Under the pieces are notes generated by a model, which saw only the letters and a program-made list of their open reading frames with translations, was not told where the DNA came from and did no database searches. Made by a program: the position numbers and the translations under genes. Shown piece after piece: positions 19,073 through 32,533 of a DNA stretch of 64,000 bases. Location of the stretch: positions 1 to 64,000 of the forward strand of contig JAGQIK010000115.1 in the NCBI GenBank assembly GCA_020431405.1, read 5' to 3'. This DNA is from Myxococcales bacterium. Its GTDB lineage: Bacteria > Myxococcota_A > Polyangia > GCA-2747355. Every line of letters begins with the position of its first letter. Positions within the stretch are counted from its first letter, which is position 1.

Positions 19073-21274
19073 ATGTGGGCGGATGACCTACCGGTGAAAC
19101 AACAGCTCGACAGGCTAGCGACACTCCTCGCTGCGCGAGACGGCAGCACGGCCGACGTCAGCGGCTTGCTCGGACCACTCGCCGAGCTGCGCCTGGCGGC
19201 GTTCGACGCGGGCGCTAGCGACGAGGTGGCGCGCGTCGAGCAGCTGATGGAGATGGTCGCGGGTGCGGCCGACGAGCCGGCAGCGGCCGCGGCGGTGCAG
19301 GCCATCGCGGCGCTGCTGGCCGATCTCGGTGTGAACGTTGTGCTCGCTGCGGACGAGCCCAGCGCGATAGCGGCGGCCGAGCCCGAGCCCGAGCCGGACG
19401 CGGACATCGAGACGATCCCACTTCCCGCCGCGCTCGAGGACGAGGAGCTGCTCGTCGAGTTCCTCGTCGAGGCCGACGAGCACCTCACCGCCGCCGACAC
19501 GCTGCTCCTGCATCTCGAGCGCGACCACGACGACATCGAGTCGCTGCACGCGCTCTTCCGCGGGCTGCACACCATCAAGGGCCTCGCTGGTTTTCTCGAG
19601 CTCGAGGCCATCGGCACCCTCGCTCACGCCGCCGAGTCGCTGCTCGACGCCGTGCGCCGCAACGAGCGCGTGCTCGACGGGATCGCCATCGACGCGATCT
19701 TCACCGCCGTCGACAAGCTGCGCGCGATGGTGGTCGCCGTCGAGCGCGCGGCAAAGGGCAAGACGCCGCTGCCCGTCGACCGCAGCGCGATCGCGCACGC
19801 CGAGCACCTGCGCAAGCTCACCGCCCTCGACAAGAAGGCGCGCCTCGGCGAGATCCTCGTCGCCGCCGGCGCTGTCGACGAACAGACGATCGACGCCAGC
19901 ATCGAGCAGCAGAAGGCCGGTGACGCGCGCCCGCTCGGCACACTGCTCATCGAAAAGGGCGTCGCGGCCAAGCAGGTGGCGCAGGGCCTGCGCGCGCAGC
20001 GGCTCGCCGCCGAAAGAAAGCAGGACGAGCCCGCGCCGAGCAGCTCGACGACGAGCAACACCATTCGCGTCCCGGTGGATCGGCTCGACCTTTTGGTCGA
20101 CGCCATCGGCGAGCTGGCCATCGCGCAGTCGATGCTCTCCGAGCTGGCGCGCAGCGGCCTCAACGCGCGCTCCTCGCGCTTGCAGCGCACGCTGGCGCAC
20201 GTCGAACGCACGACGCGAGAGCTTCACAGCCTCGCTTCGTCGATGCGTATGGTCCCGCTGCGCCGCGCGTTCGACAAGCTCGCGCGTGTCGCGCGCGACG
20301 CCGCCCGCCGCACCGGCAAAGAGATCGACTTCTGCTGTCACGGCGAGGAGACCGAGCTCGACAAGAAGCTCGTCGAGGCCATCGGCGATCCGCTGCTGCA
20401 CATCGTGCGCAACGCCGTGGGGCACGGCATCGAGCCCGAGGTCGAGCAGCGTCGCACCGCCGGCAAGCCCGACGCCGGCAAGGTGACGCTCACGGCGTTC
20501 CATCGCGGCGGCAGCGTGTTCATCGAGGTCAGCGACGACGGCCGCGGGCTGTCGCGCGAGCGTATCCTCAAGAAGGCACGCAGCCAGGGGATCGTCGACG
20601 AGAACGCGAACCTCAGCGAAGACGAGATCTATCAGCTGATCCTGCGTCCAGGTTTCTCCACGGCGCCCAAGGTCACCGACCTCTCCGGGCGCGGCGTGGG
20701 GCTCGACGTGGTCAAGCGCACCGTCGACAGCCTCGGCGGCGCGCTGACGATCCGTTCGACCGAGGGCAAGGGCTCGACGTTCTCGCTGCGGCTGCCGCTG
20801 ACACTGGCCGTGATGGACGGCATGGTGGTGCGCATCGGCAACCAGCGCTACGCGATCCCGCTGCTGTCGATGGTGCGCTCGGTGCGGCCCGCGCGCGAAG
20901 ACGTGCACCAGGTGGTGGGCTGCGGCGAGCTGGTTTCGATCCGCGGCCAGCTGGTGCCGTTGGTGCGCCTGGCGCAGCTGTTCAATATCCGCGGCGCGGC
21001 AGGCCTGCACGAGGGCTTCGTCGTGCAGGTCGAAGACGACGGCCAACAGGCGGGGCTGCTCGTCGACGAGCTGCTCGGCCAGCAACAGATCGTCGTCAAG
21101 ACGCTCGGCGATGGGCTCGGCTGCATCGACGCCTTCGCCGGCGGCGCGATCCTGCCCGACGGTCGCGTGGGGCTGATCCTCGAGGTCGGCGCGATCATCC
21201 GCGCTAGCCGCGGCTACCGCCGCGCGGTCACCAATAGCAACTGCGACACGAGAACCAGCGAGCTGTCCAACTAG
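19073..21274 (+). CDS. cheA: Chemotaxis-type histidine kinase CheA (first copy)
   Basis: A 733-residue kinase. An unusual helical N-terminus (1-115, acidic linker at the end) precedes the HPt domain with phosphoacceptor His166 in LHTIKGLAGF. In place of a recognisable P2 domain, residues 257-310 hold two repeats of the T2SS-E/MshEN pattern: RLGEILVAAGAVDEQTIDAS then PLGTLLIEKGVAAKQVAQGL. Dimerisation (about 335-395), HATPase (IVRNAVGHGIEP, SDDGRGLS, DLSGRGVGLDVVK) and a CheW-like regulatory domain (GQLVPLVRL) follow. It heads a twelve-gene operon with cheW 22 bases behind. The start has no clear ribosome site; a GTG seven codons in is an alternative. It should phosphorylate CheB and the REC proteins nearby. 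Confidence 0.92.
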   Translation: MWADDLPVKQQLDRLATLLAARDGSTADVSGLLGPLAELRLAAFDAGASDEVARVEQLMEMVAGAADEPAAAAAVQAIAALLADLGVNVVLAADEPSAIAAAEPEPEPDADIETIPLPAALEDEELLVEFLVEADEHLTAADTLLLHLERDHDDIESLHALFRGLHTIKGLAGFLELEAIGTLAHAAESLLDAVRRNERVLDGIAIDAIFTAVDKLRAMVVAVERAAKGKTPLPVDRSAIAHAEHLRKLTALDKKARLGEILVAAGAVDEQTIDASIEQQKAGDARPLGTLLIEKGVAAKQVAQGLRAQRLAAERKQDEPAPSSSTTSNTIRVPVDRLDLLVDAIGELAIAQSMLSELARSGLNARSSRLQRTLAHVERTTRELHSLASSMRMVPLRRAFDKLARVARDAARRTGKEIDFCCHGEETELDKKLVEAIGDPLLHIVRNAVGHGIEPEVEQRRTAGKPDAGKVTLTAFHRGGSVFIEVSDDGRGLSRERILKKARSQGIVDENANLSEDEIYQLILRPGFSTAPKVTDLSGRGVGLDVVKRTVDSLGGALTIRSTEGKGSTFSLRLPLTLAVMDGMVVRIGNQRYAIPLLSMVRSVRPAREDVHQVVGCGELVSIRGQLVPLVRLAQLFNIRGAAGLHEGFVVQVEDDGQQAGLLVDELLGQQQIVVKTLGDGLGCIDAFAGGAILPDGRVGLILEVGAIIRASRGYRRAVTNSNCDTRTSELSN

Positions 21275-21296: not shown

Positions 21297-21848
21297 GTGG
21301 AAAGACAAGAGAGCCAACCAGCAGCCGGCGGCGCGCGTGTCGCTGGAGCTGGCAAGTACCTCACTTTCCGCTTGGGCGAGGAGGAGTACGGTCTCGAGAT
21401 TCTCAAGGTGCGCGAGCTGATCGGCCTGATGGAGATCACGCCCGTGCCGATGACGCCCGAGTACATCCGCGGCGTCATCAACCTGCGAGGCAAGGTCATC
21501 CCGGTGGTTGATCTGCGGCTCAAGTTCGGCCTGCAGCCGACGCCAGACAACGACCGCAAGACGATCATCGTCGTCGACGTCAAGAAGCCCAAAGGGCTGG
21601 TGCAGATGGGCGTGCTCGTCGACCTCGTCTCGGAGGTCGCGTTCATCGCCGCCGACGATATCGAGGCACCACCGAGCTTCGGCGACGACTACGCCACCAG
21701 CTTCATCCTCGGCATGGGCAAGAGCAAAGGCGTGCTCAAGGTGCTGCTCGACATCGACGTCGTGCTCGGTTCGTCCGACGTCATCTCGGCAGCGGTGCAC
21801 GCGCCCGCACAACCCAACGCGAACGCTGCGGCGAGCAGCCTTCAATAG
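21297..21848 (+). CDS. cheW: CheW coupling protein
   Basis: A 183-residue scaffold protein with GTG start and AGGGAGGG upstream. A 20-residue Gly/Ala-rich lead is followed by the CheW fold: YLTFRLGEEEYGLEILKVRE, TPVPMTPEYIRGVINLRGKV, IPVVDLRLKFG and VGVLVDLVSEV-like strands. It links the chemoreceptor to CheA in the cytoplasmic array. It is the only stand-alone cheW in a cluster that has two CheA kinases, so both may share it. The C-terminal 20 residues are an Ala/Pro/Asn tail. Confidence 0.93.
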   Translation: MERQESQPAAGGARVAGAGKYLTFRLGEEEYGLEILKVRELIGLMEITPVPMTPEYIRGVINLRGKVIPVVDLRLKFGLQPTPDNDRKTIIVVDVKKPKGLVQMGVLVDLVSEVAFIAADDIEAPPSFGDDYATSFILGMGKSKGVLKVLLDIDVVLGSSDVISAAVHAPAQPNANAAASSLQ

Positions 21849-21893: not shown

Positions 21894-24049
<2,156 letters not shown>

Positions 24050-24050
<1 letters not shown>

Positions 24051-25984: not shown

Positions 25985-27150
25985 TGCACGCCCTGGTAGT
26001 CGACGATGACCCCACCACGCGCACGCAGCTGCGCGCGCTGCTCGGCAGCTGGGGATACGACGTGCTCGAGGCCGGCGACGCCGCGCAGGCCGAGAGCGCG
26101 CTCGCGCGGCGCGATGCGCCGCTGCTGATGATCGTCGACTGGGTGATGCCCGAGACCAATGGCGTCGAGCTGCTGCGTAGGGCGCGCTCGCTGCCGGAGG
26201 CCTCGCCACTGTACGTGATCATGGTCAGCGGCAAGCACGAGAGCGCGGCGGCGGCCTATGCGCTGGAGTCCGGCGCCGACGACTTTGTCAGCAAGCCGCT
26301 CGATCCCGTGGCGCTGCGCGCGCGTGTCGGTGTGGGGGCGCGCATGCTCGCCAAGTCGGAAGCGCTGCAGCGATACGCCGAGGAGATGTCGCGGCTCGCC
26401 GAGGCGCGCGCCGCCGAGATTCTGCACGCCGACCGGCTCGCCACCCTGGGGCAGCTCGCTGCCGGTGTCGCGCACGAGATCAACAACCCGACGACGTTTA
26501 TCGCCGGCAACGCTGAGCTGCTCGAGCGCGTCTGGCCCGACCTCGAGCGCGCGCTGGCGCAGGCCGGCGACGCGCGCTTGGTGGCGATCAGCGCCGAGGT
26601 CCCTGCGATGCTCGCCGCCGTTCGCGGCGGCGCGGAGCGCGTGCGCCGCATCGTGGCCGACCTCAAGTCCTACGCGCGCAAGGGCAGCAGCGATCCGAGG
26701 GAACGCGAGCTGGCCAACGTCAACGAATCCGTCGAGCGCGCGGCGCGTCTGCTCGGCTCGCGATTCAAGCACGACGTGCGTCTCGAGCTCGATTTAGGCG
26801 ACATCTCGGCCTGCCGTATCGATCCGCCGACGTTCGAGCAGGCGCTGGTGAACCTGCTCAACAACGCCTGTGACGCCGTGCAGGGCGTCGCGGGCGCGAC
26901 GGTGGCCGTTCGCAGCAGGCAGCGCGATGACGGCATTGAAGTGGTGGTCGAGGACAACGGAGCGGGCATTCCAGACGCGGTGATGCGCGAGATCTGGAAC
27001 CCGTTCTTCACGACGAAGCCGCCGGGCAAGGGCACGGGCCTGGGTCTTTGCATCAGCCAGCGCATCATCGCCGAGCACGGCGGCGCGCTGCGCGCGAGCA
27101 ATCGGCGCGAGGGTGGCGCCCGCTTCGTCATTTCGGGGGTGGGGTCATGA
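25984..27150 (+). CDS. REC-histidine kinase (receiver at N-terminus)
   Basis: A 388-residue soluble hybrid with reversed order. The receiver (1-120) has Asp52 in IVDWVMPETNG and Lys in FVSKPLDP. A coiled-coil helix leads to HisKA with His164 in LGQLAAGVAHEINNPTTFI, then HATPase with NLLNNACDAV, EDNGAGIP, FFTTKPPGKGTGLGL. The catalytic part resembles NtrB/HupT-like soluble kinases. It lies inside the che operon between cheB and a REC gene (ATGA overlap), so CheA probably phosphorylates its receiver and thereby gates a second phosphorelay. That connection is inference. Confidence 0.9.
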   Translation: MHALVVDDDPTTRTQLRALLGSWGYDVLEAGDAAQAESALARRDAPLLMIVDWVMPETNGVELLRRARSLPEASPLYVIMVSGKHESAAAAYALESGADDFVSKPLDPVALRARVGVGARMLAKSEALQRYAEEMSRLAEARAAEILHADRLATLGQLAAGVAHEINNPTTFIAGNAELLERVWPDLERALAQAGDARLVAISAEVPAMLAAVRGGAERVRRIVADLKSYARKGSSDPRERELANVNESVERAARLLGSRFKHDVRLELDLGDISACRIDPPTFEQALVNLLNNACDAVQGVAGATVAVRSRQRDDGIEVVVEDNGAGIPDAVMREIWNPFFTTKPPGKGTGLGLCISQRIIAEHGGALRASNRREGGARFVISGVGS

Positions 27151-27590
27151 CAGCGCACAGCGCGACGATCCTCGTCGTAGACGACGAGGTCGAGATCCAG
27201 CAGCTGCTGCGGCGGCATTTCACGTTCGCGGGTCACGTCGTGCACCTAGCGGGCAACGGCATGGAGGCGCTCGAGCTGCTCGGCCGCCATCGTGTCGACG
27301 TGGTGGTCAGCGACATCGTGATGCCCGAGATGGGTGGCGTGGAGCTGCTCGAGCACATGCGAGCAGCACACCCGCTGGTGCGCGCTGTGATGATGACGGG
27401 CTACGTGACGCAGCAGAACATCCTCGCCTGCATGCGGCTTGGGGCCGACAGCTGCGTCTTCAAGCCCTTCGAGACGCTCGACAAGCTCGACGAGGCGCTC
27501 GACCGCTCGTTGCGCATGATCGCGCACTGGCTCGAAGTGCTGCGCCAGCGAACCAACATCCCTGCCCTCGATACAAAGGCGGTGGGCTGA
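27147..27590 (+). CDS. Single-domain response regulator (REC)
   Basis: A 147-residue receiver with a short C-terminal tail. Key residues are DDE at the N-terminus, phosphoacceptor Asp in VVVSDIVMPEMGG, Thr in MMTGYV and Lys in CVFKPFE. The tail (about 120-147) is helical and basic with no known output. The ATG overlaps the stop of the REC-kinase. It is likely the partner of that kinase or of CheA2, which starts two bases later. Confidence 0.9.
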   Translation: MTAHSATILVVDDEVEIQQLLRRHFTFAGHVVHLAGNGMEALELLGRHRVDVVVSDIVMPEMGGVELLEHMRAAHPLVRAVMMTGYVTQQNILACMRLGADSCVFKPFETLDKLDEALDRSLRMIAHWLEVLRQRTNIPALDTKAVG

Positions 27591-27592
27591 CT

Positions 27593-29785
27593 ATGAGCAC
27601 GCTGGGCGCTATCGATCGCGAGATCCTCGAGGCCTTCATCGACGAGTCGCAGGAGGACCTTTCTGCCTGCGGGCCGCTGTTGGTGACGCTCGAGGAGCGT
27701 GCAGATCGCGGCGCCATCGACCGCATCTTTCGCGCCTATCACAGCATCAAGGGCAACGCGTCGTTCTTCGGGCTGATGGTGCTCAGTCACCTCGCGCACA
27801 AGCTCGAGGATGTGCTCGACCTGGCACGCCAAGGGCAGCTTTCGCCCGACGGCGCTGTGGTGGACGTGCTGCTGCGCGGAAACGACGTGCTCGAGCTTTT
27901 GCTCGCGCGCGCGCGCGCCGGGGCCGAGCCGGACGACGAGCTGGTCGGTCGTGCGCGGGAGCTCGAGCAAGAGCTCGCTGGCGTGGTCGTGCGCGCGGCA
28001 CCCGACGAGGGGCAGCGTTGGGCGCGTGTCTTCGAAGCGCTCGCGGCCGTCGAGCAGTGCGCTGGCGGTGGCGACGGGGGCGGCGCCGCGCTGGCCGAGC
28101 GCGTGGCGCAGCTTCGCGGGCACATCGATGCGGTTTGCCCCGACAACATGCGGCCCGAAGCCAGCGAAGAGGAGCGCTTCGCGTTCGCCATCGAGGCGGT
28201 ACGCGCGCTGATCGAGCGCGGCCCGTCGGTCGACGCGCGCGAGCTGCAGGCAGCGGTGGAGCAGCTGGCCAAGGTCGGCCCCGAGGCGAGCCGAGAGCTG
28301 GCGGCGCGCGCGGCCGCCGAGGTGATCTCCATCGTCTCGCAGGTCGGGGTCGATACGATGCTGATCGAGTCGCTGGCGGGGCAGCTCGATGCGATCGAGT
28401 CCGCGTCAACCGCTGTGGCCCCCGCCGATACGCGCTCTGCCGATCTGGCGACGGACGAGGCTCGGGCGCCACGCCGCGAGGCGCGCGCCGCCAGCGGCGA
28501 GACGGACGCGGCCGCTGCGGGCGACGGCGGCGGCGACAACCGCACCATGCGCGTTCAGGAGGCGCGCGTCGACGAGTTCCTGGCCTTCGTCGGCGAGCTG
28601 ATCGTCGTGCGCGAGATGTTCCGCAACCTGGGCAAGAAGCTGCGGACCAAGAAGGTCGGTCGGCTGCAGCGCGAGTTTCAGTGGTCGATGGACGCCTTCG
28701 AGACGCTCTCGCACTCGCTGCAGCACAGCATCATGGAGGTGCGTAAGGTCTCGGTGCGCACGCTGCTGTCCAAGTCGCCGCGCATCATTCGCGACGTGGC
28801 GCGCGTGGCCGGCAAGGAGGTGCGGGTAGAGACGTCGGGCGATGACCTGCGCATCGACAAGAGCCTCGTCGAGCTGCTCGAGGCGCCGCTGGTGCATCTG
28901 GCGCGCAACGCCGCCGACCACGGCATCGAGTCGCCGGGGCAGCGCGAGGCGAGCGGCAAGCCGGCGGCGGGCATGGTGGCGCTGTCGATCTGCGAGACGT
29001 CCGACAGCATCGTGGTCGAGGTGCGCGATGACGGCGCCGGCATCGACTGCGAGCGCGTGCGCGCCAAGGCCGTCGCGCGCGGCATCGTCGACGCGGAGAC
29101 GGCGGCACGGCTGAGCCACGCCGAGACCTACGCGTTGCTGATGCGACCCGGCTTCAGCACCGCCGAGAAGGTCACCGACGTCTCGGGCCGGGGTGTGGGC
29201 ATGGACGTGGTGCGCAGCGAGGTGGAGCGTATCGGCGGGCGCATCGAGATCGCCAGCCAGCTCGGCGCCGGGACGACGTTCACGCTCTCGATCCCCAAGA
29301 GCGTCAGCGTGCAGATCGTCGACGGCTTCGTGGTGCGCGTCGGAGAGGCGCGCTACGTGCTGCCGCTGCTCTCGGTGCGCGAGTCTTTCCGCCCACGCTG
29401 CGAAGACATCCAGACCACCCTGGGCGGGCGCAAGCGCTGCGTCGCGCGCCGTGGTCAGGTCATCGAGCTCTTCAGCGTCGCGCAGGTGCTGTCGAGGCGC
29501 GCCGAGCACGAGATCTCCCCCGAGGCGATCGTCGTGACGGTCGAGGTGCGCCCGGGAGGCGGCGTGGTCGGCCTGCTGGTCGACGAGGTGGTCGGTGTAC
29601 AGCAAGTGGTCGTGCGCGACATCGGCGGCCTCGAGGAGTTCGAGACGCCGTTCGCCGGGGGCGCCGTGCTCGGCGACGGGGGGATCGCGATGGTGGTCGA
29701 GCTCGACGGCATGCGCGAGCACATCCGCGCCACGTCGTGGCCGCCACTGCCGACCGCGACCGCAACGTGCATGGGAGGGGCGTGA
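27593..29785 (+). CDS. cheA: Chemotaxis-type histidine kinase CheA (second copy)
   Basis: A 730-residue kinase distinct from the first CheA. The HPt domain is at the very N-terminus with His in AYHSIKGNASFFGL (about residue 48). A long Ala/Glu-rich helical region (about 110-310) replaces a classic P2. Dimerisation and HATPase follow with RMVxL-equivalent IMEVRKVSVRTLL, LVHLARNAADHGIESP, RDDGAGID and DVSGRGVGMDVVR, then a CheW-like domain (RRGQVIELFSVAQVL). It ends in a short Pro/Thr/Ala tail. It sits after a REC gene and its stop overlaps the CheD-REC start. Two CheA proteins in one operon imply two phosphate inputs into the same REC pool. Confidence 0.92.
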   Translation: MSTLGAIDREILEAFIDESQEDLSACGPLLVTLEERADRGAIDRIFRAYHSIKGNASFFGLMVLSHLAHKLEDVLDLARQGQLSPDGAVVDVLLRGNDVLELLLARARAGAEPDDELVGRARELEQELAGVVVRAAPDEGQRWARVFEALAAVEQCAGGGDGGGAALAERVAQLRGHIDAVCPDNMRPEASEEERFAFAIEAVRALIERGPSVDARELQAAVEQLAKVGPEASRELAARAAAEVISIVSQVGVDTMLIESLAGQLDAIESASTAVAPADTRSADLATDEARAPRREARAASGETDAAAAGDGGGDNRTMRVQEARVDEFLAFVGELIVVREMFRNLGKKLRTKKVGRLQREFQWSMDAFETLSHSLQHSIMEVRKVSVRTLLSKSPRIIRDVARVAGKEVRVETSGDDLRIDKSLVELLEAPLVHLARNAADHGIESPGQREASGKPAAGMVALSICETSDSIVVEVRDDGAGIDCERVRAKAVARGIVDAETAARLSHAETYALLMRPGFSTAEKVTDVSGRGVGMDVVRSEVERIGGRIEIASQLGAGTTFTLSIPKSVSVQIVDGFVVRVGEARYVLPLLSVRESFRPRCEDIQTTLGGRKRCVARRGQVIELFSVAQVLSRRAEHEISPEAIVVTVEVRPGGGVVGLLVDEVVGVQQVVVRDIGGLEEFETPFAGGAVLGDGGIAMVVELDGMREHIRATSWPPLPTATATCMGGA

Positions 29786-30693
29786 TGGAAAAGAGAGCGT
29801 TTCTACTTCCTGGCGACATGGTGACCACCGCGCACCCTATGCAGCTGGCGACGTTGCTCGGGTCGTGCGTCTCGGTCTGTCTCTACAACCTGCAGCGCGA
29901 TCTCGCCGCGATGAATCACTTCATGCTGCCGCTGGCCGAGGGCAACCCCGATGTCGGTCGCTTCGGCGACACGTCCACCGAGAAGATCATCGTCACGCTG
30001 CTCGCCCGCGACGGCAACCCGGACCACTACCAGGCCAAGGTCTTTGGCGGTGGCCACGTCGTGGGCGCCATCGGCGGCACGATGCGCATCGGCGAGCGCA
30101 ATATCGCTGCCGCGCGCTCGATTCTGGGGCGCTACCGCATCCGTGTGGTCGACGAGGACGTGGGCGGCAAGCACGGGCGGCGTGTGGCGTTCGATACGGG
30201 CGCGCGCGAGACGGTTTGCGCTCCGATCCCGTCGTCGGCGATGGGCAGCGCCTGCGCTCGACCGGGGAAAACACGCGTGCTGATCGTCGACGACTCGGAG
30301 ACGGTGAGGCGCCTCCTGCGACACGCGCTCACCGACGTGGAGGGGTTCGAGGTCGCCGGCGAAGCGCGCGACGCTTTCGAGGCGCGCGAGAAGATCCTGA
30401 GCCTCGAGCCGGACATGCTCACGCTCGACATCGAGATGCCCAAGCTCGACGGGCTCTCATTTCTGCAACGCCTGACGCAGTACCTGCCGACAAGGGTGGT
30501 GGTGATCTCGTCGAAGGCTCGTTCCGACTCGCCGATCCCGGCGCGCGCACGCCAGCTCGGCGCCGCAGACGTGATCGACAAGGCTGACCTCGAGCTTTTT
30601 AAGGGGGTGGACAGGTTGCGTGCCTCGCTGTTGCCGCGATTAACGGCAGCGGCGCGCACGGCGGCGCCGGTGCGCAGCTTCTCTGGAGGATGA
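29785..30693 (+). CDS. CheD-receiver fusion protein
   Basis: A 302-residue fusion. Residues 1-150 are CheD, a receptor glutamine deamidase: LATLLGSCVSVCLYN with catalytic Cys28, AAMNHFMLPL with His45 and Thr23, then KVFGGGHVVGAIGGTMRIGERN. Residues about 162-285 are a receiver most like the CheB receiver (LTLDIEMPKLDGLSFLQRLT, Asp215; VVISSKA; VIDKAD), but no methylesterase domain follows. In other bacteria CheD is free and partners CheC/CheX. Here deamidation could be gated directly by phosphorylation from CheA. GGGAGGGG precedes the ATG, which overlaps the cheA2 stop; the end overlaps the next gene region. Confidence 0.85.
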   Translation: MEKRAFLLPGDMVTTAHPMQLATLLGSCVSVCLYNLQRDLAAMNHFMLPLAEGNPDVGRFGDTSTEKIIVTLLARDGNPDHYQAKVFGGGHVVGAIGGTMRIGERNIAAARSILGRYRIRVVDEDVGGKHGRRVAFDTGARETVCAPIPSSAMGSACARPGKTRVLIVDDSETVRRLLRHALTDVEGFEVAGEARDAFEAREKILSLEPDMLTLDIEMPKLDGLSFLQRLTQYLPTRVVVISSKARSDSPIPARARQLGAADVIDKADLELFKGVDRLRASLLPRLTAAARTAAPVRSFSGG

Positions 30694-31094: not shown

Positions 31095-31162
31095 TCGAGC
31101 CGGCGATCCGCCGAATGGAACAGTGGGGCGCCTGCGAGCGCCTCGCAGGACAAGGACGACCC

Positions 31163-31663
31163 ATGGATGCTATCGACCCGGCCGCGAGACACTGGCTAGA
31201 TGCCGCCGTTAGCGGCTTCGACGAGCTGGCGGTGAGCATGCTCGAGGCGAACGGGGTGGAAAAGGGGGAGGACACGGAGGCGCTTTCCAACGACCAGTGC
31301 GGCGCGGTGATCGCGCTCGTGCCGGAGCAAGGCGATTCCATCGAGCTCGGTCTGTTTTCCAACCGCGAGGGCGTCACGCGCCTGTCGCGCGCGTTGCTCG
31401 GCATGGAGGAGGGGGACGAGCTGTCGGAGGACGAAGTCGCCGACTGCGTGGGAGAGCTGATCAACATCGTCGCGGGCAACGCCAAGGGCGCCAACGGAAA
31501 CAGCACGTACAGGCTCGGCATGCCGGTCTACGTCGCGGGTCCGCTGCGCCCTGGCAGCCGCGCCAAGTTCTCCGGCTGCGGCGTGCGCATGGACGACATC
31601 GAGGTGACGTTGTGCGTGCTCAGCCCGTCGTTCGCCTCCACAAAACCACGCCAGGACAGATAG
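31163..31663 (+). CDS. cheX: CheX-type phosphatase
   Basis: A 166-residue protein of the CheC/CheX/FliY family. The signature ExxN is present in CVGELINIVAGNAKG, where CheX uses Glu and Asn to help hydrolyse the aspartyl phosphate of CheY. Also typical are CGAVIALVPEQ, IELGLFSN and the MPVYVAGP strand. I chose ATG 31163 (after AAGGACG) over 31115. As a phosphatase it would end signals from the REC proteins in the operon. It stops 15 bases before the next gene. Confidence 0.82.
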   Translation: MDAIDPAARHWLDAAVSGFDELAVSMLEANGVEKGEDTEALSNDQCGAVIALVPEQGDSIELGLFSNREGVTRLSRALLGMEEGDELSEDEVADCVGELINIVAGNAKGANGNSTYRLGMPVYVAGPLRPGSRAKFSGCGVRMDDIEVTLCVLSPSFASTKPRQDR

Positions 31664-31678
31664 CGCAGGAGTGATGCG

Positions 31679-32533
31679 ATGAGAGTGCTGATCGTCGATG
31701 ACAGTAAAGCGATGCGCATGATCGTCAAAAGGACGCTGCGGTCGGCCGGTTTTACCGGGCTCGACGTTTCCGAGGCTGGCGACGGCGCGGAGGCTTTGAG
31801 CGCGATCCAGAAGAGCCCACCCGATGTGGTGCTGACCGACTGGAACATGCCCAACCTCAACGGCATCGAGCTGGTGCGCAAGCTCAAGGAGCAGAACTCG
31901 CCGGTGACCATCGGCGTCGTGACGAGCGAGTCATCCGCGGAGATGCGCGACGAGGCCGTCGCCGCGGGCGCGGCGTTCTTCATCACCAAGCCCTTCACCG
32001 CAGAGACCTTCGGCCAGGCCCTCGACGGGCTGCTTGGCCAGGCTGGCGCAGGCAGCAGCGATGGCGCGACCACGCAGGCGCAATCTGCGGTGCCCGACGT
32101 GAGCGGCCTGCGCACTGCGCTCGCCAGGCTGGTGCCGCGCAACGTCGACGTGGCGCAGGCCAAGAGCAAGGCGAGCGAGAAGGGCACGGTGGTGGCGCGC
32201 TATCACGACGCGGACGGCGCGCTGGGGGCGGTGGCCTTTGCCGACCTGAGCTCTACGGCCTGCTTCGGCGCGGCGCTGACGCTGATCCCTGCCGGCGCGG
32301 TCAAGGACGCGGTGCGCGGCGGTGAGCTGCCGCAGAACATGCGCGACAACGCCAACGAGGTCTTCAACGTCATCGGCAGCCTGATGAGCGGCGTGAAGCT
32401 CGCGGAGGTGATCTTCGAGGGCGGCGACGTGCAGGGCGACGTGAAGGGCAAGATCTCGAGCGCTGCGCATCGTCTAGACGTGCAGGTGGAGATCACTGGC
32501 TATCCGCCCGGCACCCTCTCGATCGTGCGCTGA
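31679..32533 (+). CDS. Receiver-CheX fusion
   Basis: A 284-residue protein. Residues 1-120 form a CheY-like receiver (VDDSKAMR, phosphoacceptor Asp in LTDWNMPNLNG, VVTSESS, Lys in FFITKPF). A short Ala/Gly/Thr linker leads to a CheX/CheC-like domain (about 150-284) with NANEVFNVIGSLM, an ExxN-type phosphatase motif, and a final HRLDVQVEITGYPPGTLSIV strand. The fusion puts a phosphatase and its substrate-like receiver in one chain, so it may regulate itself or other receivers. GCAGGAG precedes the ATG. It is the last gene of the operon; a hairpin lies about 100 bases further on. Confidence 0.82.
   Translation: MRVLIVDDSKAMRMIVKRTLRSAGFTGLDVSEAGDGAEALSAIQKSPPDVVLTDWNMPNLNGIELVRKLKEQNSPVTIGVVTSESSAEMRDEAVAAGAAFFITKPFTAETFGQALDGLLGQAGAGSSDGATTQAQSAVPDVSGLRTALARLVPRNVDVAQAKSKASEKGTVVARYHDADGALGAVAFADLSSTACFGAALTLIPAGAVKDAVRGGELPQNMRDNANEVFNVIGSLMSGVKLAEVIFEGGDVQGDVKGKISSAAHRLDVQVEITGYPPGTLSIVR

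Follow-up and report, generated by a model that had tools for sequence, protein, structure and literature searches.

A free-standing MshEN_N domain in a CheA kinase of a Myxococcales bacterium, a candidate c-di-GMP-sensing input

MshEN-type domains bind the messenger c-di-GMP in pilus motors. In MshE of Vibrio cholerae, the c-di-GMP-binding half of the domain, MshEN_N (PDB 5htl), is a 53-residue four-helix bundle with two RLG...L...L..Q motifs of 24 residues each, joined by a spacer of 5 residues (PMC5013675). The contacts with c-di-GMP described in that paper are R9, L10, G11, L25, L29 and Q32 in one motif and R38, L39, G40, L54, L58 and Q61 in the other, with Gln61 forming hydrogen bonds to the ribose and phosphate of the ligand, and MshEN_N alone (residues 1-62) is reported to bind c-di-GMP at 0.35 uM (Wang et al. 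2016, PMC5013675). CheA was named among the partners of MshEN by the same authors (Wang et al. 2016, PMC5013675), so that the MshEN-CheA fusion is already known as an architecture. In the literature searched on MshEN, CheA, c-di-GMP and chemotaxis, we found no test of any CheA MshEN, c-di-GMP binding included.

Departures from the MshE pattern have been described in the pilus ATPase PilF of T. thermophilus. Motif II of its GSPII-B domain is one residue short (the equivalent of MshE Q53 is missing) and starts with Leu, with a KD of 6 nM, and motif II of GSPII-C begins with Pro (P335), with a KD of 324-460 nM assigned to this domain (both as given in PMC11731258). Since these two domains break the strict consensus (24-5-24 residues, Arg in both first places and at least 38 bits) yet bind c-di-GMP, that consensus does not define the MshEN_N family. 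Replacing Leu by Ile at two of the positions that stack on the bases is reported to cost only about 2.4-fold in affinity (PMC12002112). In GSPII-A, Ser at the Arg position of motif II abolished binding in an otherwise permissive (repaired) construct (PMC12002112). According to the published account, binding by GSPII-A still failed in the full domain when the consensus was fully restored, and near-consensus motifs are therefore not sufficient for binding.

The window analysed here is a 64,000-nucleotide stretch of contig JAGQIK010000115.1 from a Myxococcales bacterium. It contains a chemotaxis cluster that begins with a CheA, here CheA1, and also includes CheW, a receptor, CheR, CheB, a REC-histidine kinase, a second CheA (CheA2), a CheD-REC fusion, CheX and a REC protein. 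The features discussed below are the following, with residues numbered as in CheA1.

19073..21274, + strand: CheA1 coding sequence, 733 residues plus stop (open reading frame; Pfam Hpt, H-kinase_dim, HATPase_c and CheW)
19073..19342, + strand: residues 1-90, predicted extra four-helix bundle N-terminal of P1 (AlphaFold helices 6-21, 29-45, 49-64 and 68-84)
19445..19726, + strand: residues 125-218, P1 (Hpt) with the HTIKG site at H166 (Pfam PF01627, E 1.9e-12)
19841..19999, + strand: residues 257-309, MshEN_N domain (NF053729, PDB phmmer, AlphaFold, fold search)
19841..19912, + strand: residues 257-280, motif I, 24 residues, R-L-G...I...I...Q (sequence against the consensus described in PMC5013675)
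19913..19930, + strand: residues 281-286, spacer KAGDAR, 6 residues (sequence)
19931..19999, + strand: residues 287-309, motif II, 23 residues, P-L-G...V...L...Q, lacking one residue between G296 and V302 (sequence; PilF GSPII-B is equally short)
20054..20242, + strand: residues 328-390, P3 dimerisation domain (H-kinase_dim; Pfam PF02895, E 1.1e-12)
20387..20803, + strand: residues 439-577, P4 kinase domain (HATPase_c; Pfam PF02518, E 8e-18)
20819..21205, + strand: residues 583-711, P5 CheW-like domain (Pfam PF01584, E 6.5e-23)
21297..21848, + strand: CheW (Pfam PF01584)
21894..24050, + strand: chemoreceptor with protoglobin, HAMP and MCP signal domains (Pfam)
27113-29785: CheA2 (Pfam)
29737-30693: CheD-REC fusion, adjoining CheA2 (Pfam)
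31115-31663: CheX (Pfam)
31679-32533: REC protein

CheA1 possessed the Hpt, H-kinase_dim, HATPase_c and CheW-like domains of a CheA, all above the Pfam cut-off, and its P1 site H166 was invariant across 41 full-length CheAs. These domains are common to CheA1 and E. coli-type CheA (P1-P2-P3-P4-P5). Unlike the latter, CheA1 matched no P2 model in the Pfam search of the whole protein, and is thus not a P2-type CheA; it has MshEN_N there instead, between Hpt (125-218) and H-kinase_dim (328-390), and an extra helical bundle at the N-terminus. The bundle (residues 1-90) had no Pfam match and no PDB sequence match; going by the model, a degenerate phosphotransfer domain or dimerisation domain is one possibility. 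The protoglobin domain of the neighbouring receptor suggests that gas or redox sensing may lie upstream of CheA1. No MshEN was found in CheA2, either among the 25 of 37 NCBIfam matches listed or in the genome scan.

The first-pass annotation had noticed two RLGxxL-type motifs at residues 257-310 of CheA1 and likened them to MshEN and T2SS-E proteins, and both observations were borne out, the pair occupying residues 257-309. The key residues are R257, L258, G259, G266, I273, I277 and Q280 in motif I and P287, L288, G289, G296, V302, L306 and Q309 in motif II. NF053729 ('cyclic di-GMP-binding, MshE-related'), an NCBIfam profile of 53 positions for the MshE-related c-di-GMP motif pair, matched residues 257-307; the E-value was 2.1e-6 when the whole protein was searched and 2.8e-8 for an isolated region of 82 aa. 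The score of 27-33 bits (32.9-33.4 at the upper end) was below the curated cut-off of 38 bits. A phmmer search of the PDB recovered T. thermophilus PilF as the best match (E 3.8e-10; best single stretch i-Evalue 9.2e-5), followed by PilB and MshE, and the strongest matching stretch of PilF was 298-368, the start of GSPII-C. Weak unrelated rows such as 2few_A (E 0.073) can also turn up. Judged by the NF053729 and PilF matches, the RLG-type motif pair of CheA1 is, at the sequence level, well beyond chance.

The domain of CheA1 has the same total length as that of MshE, 53 residues, but it is arranged as 24-6-23, the spacer having 6 residues rather than 5 and motif II 23 rather than 24. From start to start the motifs are 30 residues apart (R257 to P287), compared to 29 in MshE (R9 to R38), and the earlier impression that the pair stood closer together than in MshEN proper was therefore mistaken. 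In addition, CheA1 has Pro (P287) for Arg38, Ile for both Leu25 and Leu29 and Val for Leu54. It thus departs from the strict consensus in spacing, first residue of motif II and score. Under a consensus widened by published binders, in which Pro is allowed at the first position following GSPII-C and a shortening by one residue following GSPII-B, tandem RLGxxhhxxGhhxxxxLxxxLxxQ-type motifs are present in CheA1 and 12 of 12 contact positions are acceptable. By analogy with PilF as published, both deviations, the Pro opening and the short motif II, have precedents in domains that bind c-di-GMP. The short motif II is shared with GSPII-B, which was also the best fold match, and the Pro with GSPII-C, which was the best sequence stretch. 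In the pilus ATPase, however, GSPII-B and GSPII-C are each accompanied by a C-terminal subdomain, whereas MshEN_N of CheA1 precedes P3. It likewise differs from MshE in lacking MshEN_C and in residing in a histidine kinase rather than in an ATPase.

A profile search had been proposed as a check of the likeness, and its outcome was divided between the two models. NF053729 was matched, as described above. Pfam PF05157 (MshEN) had no match in CheA1, which does not possess a complete MshEN (MshEN_N plus MshEN_C). In two further MshEN proteins encoded by this genome PF05157 matched directly after the motif pair only; in one of them, L001, it was located at 58-139 and the motif pair at 5-57. PF05157 thus models MshEN_C, downstream of the motif pair, and it failed to match CheA1 because MshEN_C is lacking there. 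The miss is for this reason not evidence against MshEN_N in CheA1. In the full-length AlphaFold model of CheA1 (pLDDT 84.3), MshEN_N was confident and a low-confidence linker (316-329) connected it to P3.

The AlphaFold prediction for residues 253-314, made with 57 CheA rows, consisted of four helices (258-265, 270-281, 288-294 and 299-313) and had a mean pLDDT of 95.2 and a pTM of 0.77. The first 11 Foldseek rows were all c-di-GMP-bound PilF GSPII-B or MshE, with rmsd between 0.8 and 2.8. Foldseek probability was 1.00 to 8pfa, 8pdk and 5htl_B, and no E-value reached 0.001, which is perhaps unsurprising in a domain of this small size. VIA-align placed five GSPII-B entries at Z-scores of 10.4-11.0 and MshE at 9.7 (rmsd 1.9 over 59), with the fumarate lyase 3oce as the best unrelated row (Z 5.7); helical bundles may reach such Z-scores by chance, and here the sequence agrees with the fold on the family. 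AlphaFold, Foldseek and VIA-align thus all returned the four-helix bundle of MshEN_N. The relationship of CheA1 to MshEN/GspE-N is well supported by the profile, the match to solved MshEN domains and the predicted fold, and CheA1 is a new, slightly divergent instance of the known MshEN-CheA fusion.

The domain was also found in other CheAs. Named genomes were scanned with a CheA alignment, using a pattern in P3 rather than in MshEN, and 80 loci were recovered. In 60 of these 80 loci MshEN_N was readable and stood immediately before P3, though the tblastn ranking favoured the MshEN_N domain and the rows are therefore not a random sample. One locus (L154) retained about one motif, 16 of the 80 were without MshEN_N in the frame read (L157 looks misread), and L100, L122 and L132 were set aside because they were in the wrong reading frame. 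L118, L133, L137 and L146 were excluded from the alignment for long inserts, leaving 56 loci and CheA1 (57 rows). L041 was excluded from segment comparisons as its P3 start was misplaced. The CheAs with MshEN_N belonged to 12 named phyla by their tree labels and were mostly from metagenome assemblies, with Geomonas silvestris Red330 and Solidesulfovibrio aerotolerans DSM 16695 (L107, L117) among the named strains. A 1-residue motif spacer, shorter than that of MshE by roughly one turn of helix, occurred in 31 of the 57 rows (including L106, L107, L111 and L117) and not in CheA1. Sub-threshold matches of Pfam DUF4388 were observed in the MshEN_N segments of L091, L094, L108 and L111, hinting that part of DUF4388 may be related to the MshEN motif.

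NF053729 matched all 57 aligned rows at E<=0.001. The positions of Gly11, Gly40 and Gln61 were invariant (57/57), and that of Leu54 was V, I or L throughout (57/57). The Gln32 position was Gln in 44 of the 57 rows and the Arg9 position Lys or Arg in 42; at the Arg38 position, 30 rows had Lys or Arg and 15, like CheA1, had Pro. Over the 57 rows, mean entropy was 1.11 bits at the contact positions, 1.59 at core and turn positions and 2.62 at the rest. Random sets of 12 domain positions were as low in entropy as the contact positions in only 0.0003 of draws. When the sets were drawn from contact and core positions only, however, 0.09 of draws were as low, which is not significant, and part of the conservation may thus be structural.

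In a rapid tree built from the cores of 114 CheAs, the presence of MshEN required 12 changes, at least 6 of them forced by starred branches, compared to a mean of 36.9 after shuffling. The count may be 11, as L127 was labelled 'none' despite an NF053729 match. MshEN_N has thus been gained or lost several times among CheAs. The nearest row to CheA1 by identity, L063 (51%), lacked MshEN_N and had a low-complexity linker there, as did L062, L064, L069, L070 and L076, while the linker could not be delimited in L073 and L038. In CheA1, MshEN_N therefore takes the place of such a linker. The first-pass annotation had put the motifs in the place of P2, which is true of CheA1 but, judging from the other sequences, is not a rule for CheAs with MshEN: Pfam P2 matched 1 of the 41 full-length MshEN CheAs, and in their majority consensus Hpt and MshEN_N were separated by an additional conserved stretch.

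The genome (11.2 Mb) contained 24 GGDEF and 56 PilZ matches, flagellin genes and 12 T2SSE-family matches. A scan for the MshEN motif gave 31 matches at E<=1, of which 12 were above the family cut-off, CheA1 not being among those 12. On contig C462, a GGDEF match and a PilZ match were located a few kilobases or less from flagellin genes.

From the residues that it retains, MshEN_N of CheA1 is likely to bind c-di-GMP, and with somewhat less assurance we suggest that CheA1 carries this free-standing domain as a c-di-GMP-sensing input. Whether the ligand would then alter the kinase activity of CheA1 is an even call. Control of CheA1 by c-di-GMP is plausible on the contact positions, as judged under the widened consensus, and the messenger machinery (GGDEF, PilZ), the MshEN-motif matches and the flagellin genes of the genome support it; the NF053729 score below the cut-off, the insignificant contrast between contacts and core (0.09) and the choice of rows partly by similarity in the domain itself count against it. 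In such a mechanism, each protomer would clamp one c-di-GMP between the half-sites of its four-helix bundle, which would stiffen or re-orient the hinge that connects P1 and P3. The altered connection would change how easily P4 phosphorylates P1 within the complex of CheA, CheW and receptor, and the output of the array would thereby depend on the cellular level of c-di-GMP.

Some of the same observations could be read differently. The fold may have been kept in CheA1 while binding was lost, leaving a rigid spacer between P1 and P3. Degenerate MshEN domains do exist (XpsE and PilF GSPII-A, in the published descriptions), the CheA1 copy has two indels as well as Pro for Arg38, a residue that could hurt binding given the effect of Ser at this position in GSPII-A, and the low-complexity linkers of its relatives indicate that the place tolerates a passive linker. 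Such a loss would also fit contact positions that are not clearly more conserved than the core. A spacer, however, would not need the Gln61, Gly11 and Gly40 positions, which are retained in every row, and as far as published both oddities of CheA1 occur in c-di-GMP binders. We therefore consider this reading unlikely.

Alternatively, MshEN_N might be a docking site that does the job of P2, recruiting a response regulator or a PilZ protein with or without c-di-GMP. The position of the domain in a CheA with no matched P2 model agrees with this, as do the abundance of PilZ matches in the genome (56) and the N-terminal MshEN-type domain of Xanthomonas PilB, which was solved with PilZ (7lkm and 7lkn, both among the fold matches). 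Docking alone does not explain the invariant ligand-contact Gln and Gly, however, and the conserved stretch between Hpt and MshEN_N in the consensus of the 41 CheAs argues that MshEN_N is not a general replacement of P2; this makes a docking role rather improbable. That an amphipathic helical linker resembles the MshEN pattern by chance, a risk of which weak unrelated rows such as 2few_A and 3oce are a reminder, is hardly credible: two kinds of search were significant, the profile matched all 57 rows and the confidently predicted fold was a matching one. Chance resemblance of residues 257-309 to MshEN is refuted by the profile, phmmer, 57-row and fold results together.

The choice between swimming and settling is governed by c-di-GMP, and the direction of swimming by chemotaxis arrays. 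Both controls would be united in one protein if a kinase had a c-di-GMP domain of its own. The chances are about equal for and against a widespread subtype of CheA, spanning about a dozen named phyla, that has a c-di-GMP sensor of its own immediately N-terminal to the dimerisation domain. MshEN_N is a small and portable domain that many CheAs have conserved, which makes this idea directly testable. If true, the chemotaxis kinase itself, beyond receptors, methyltransferases or motors, would read the messenger of the motile-to-sessile transition.
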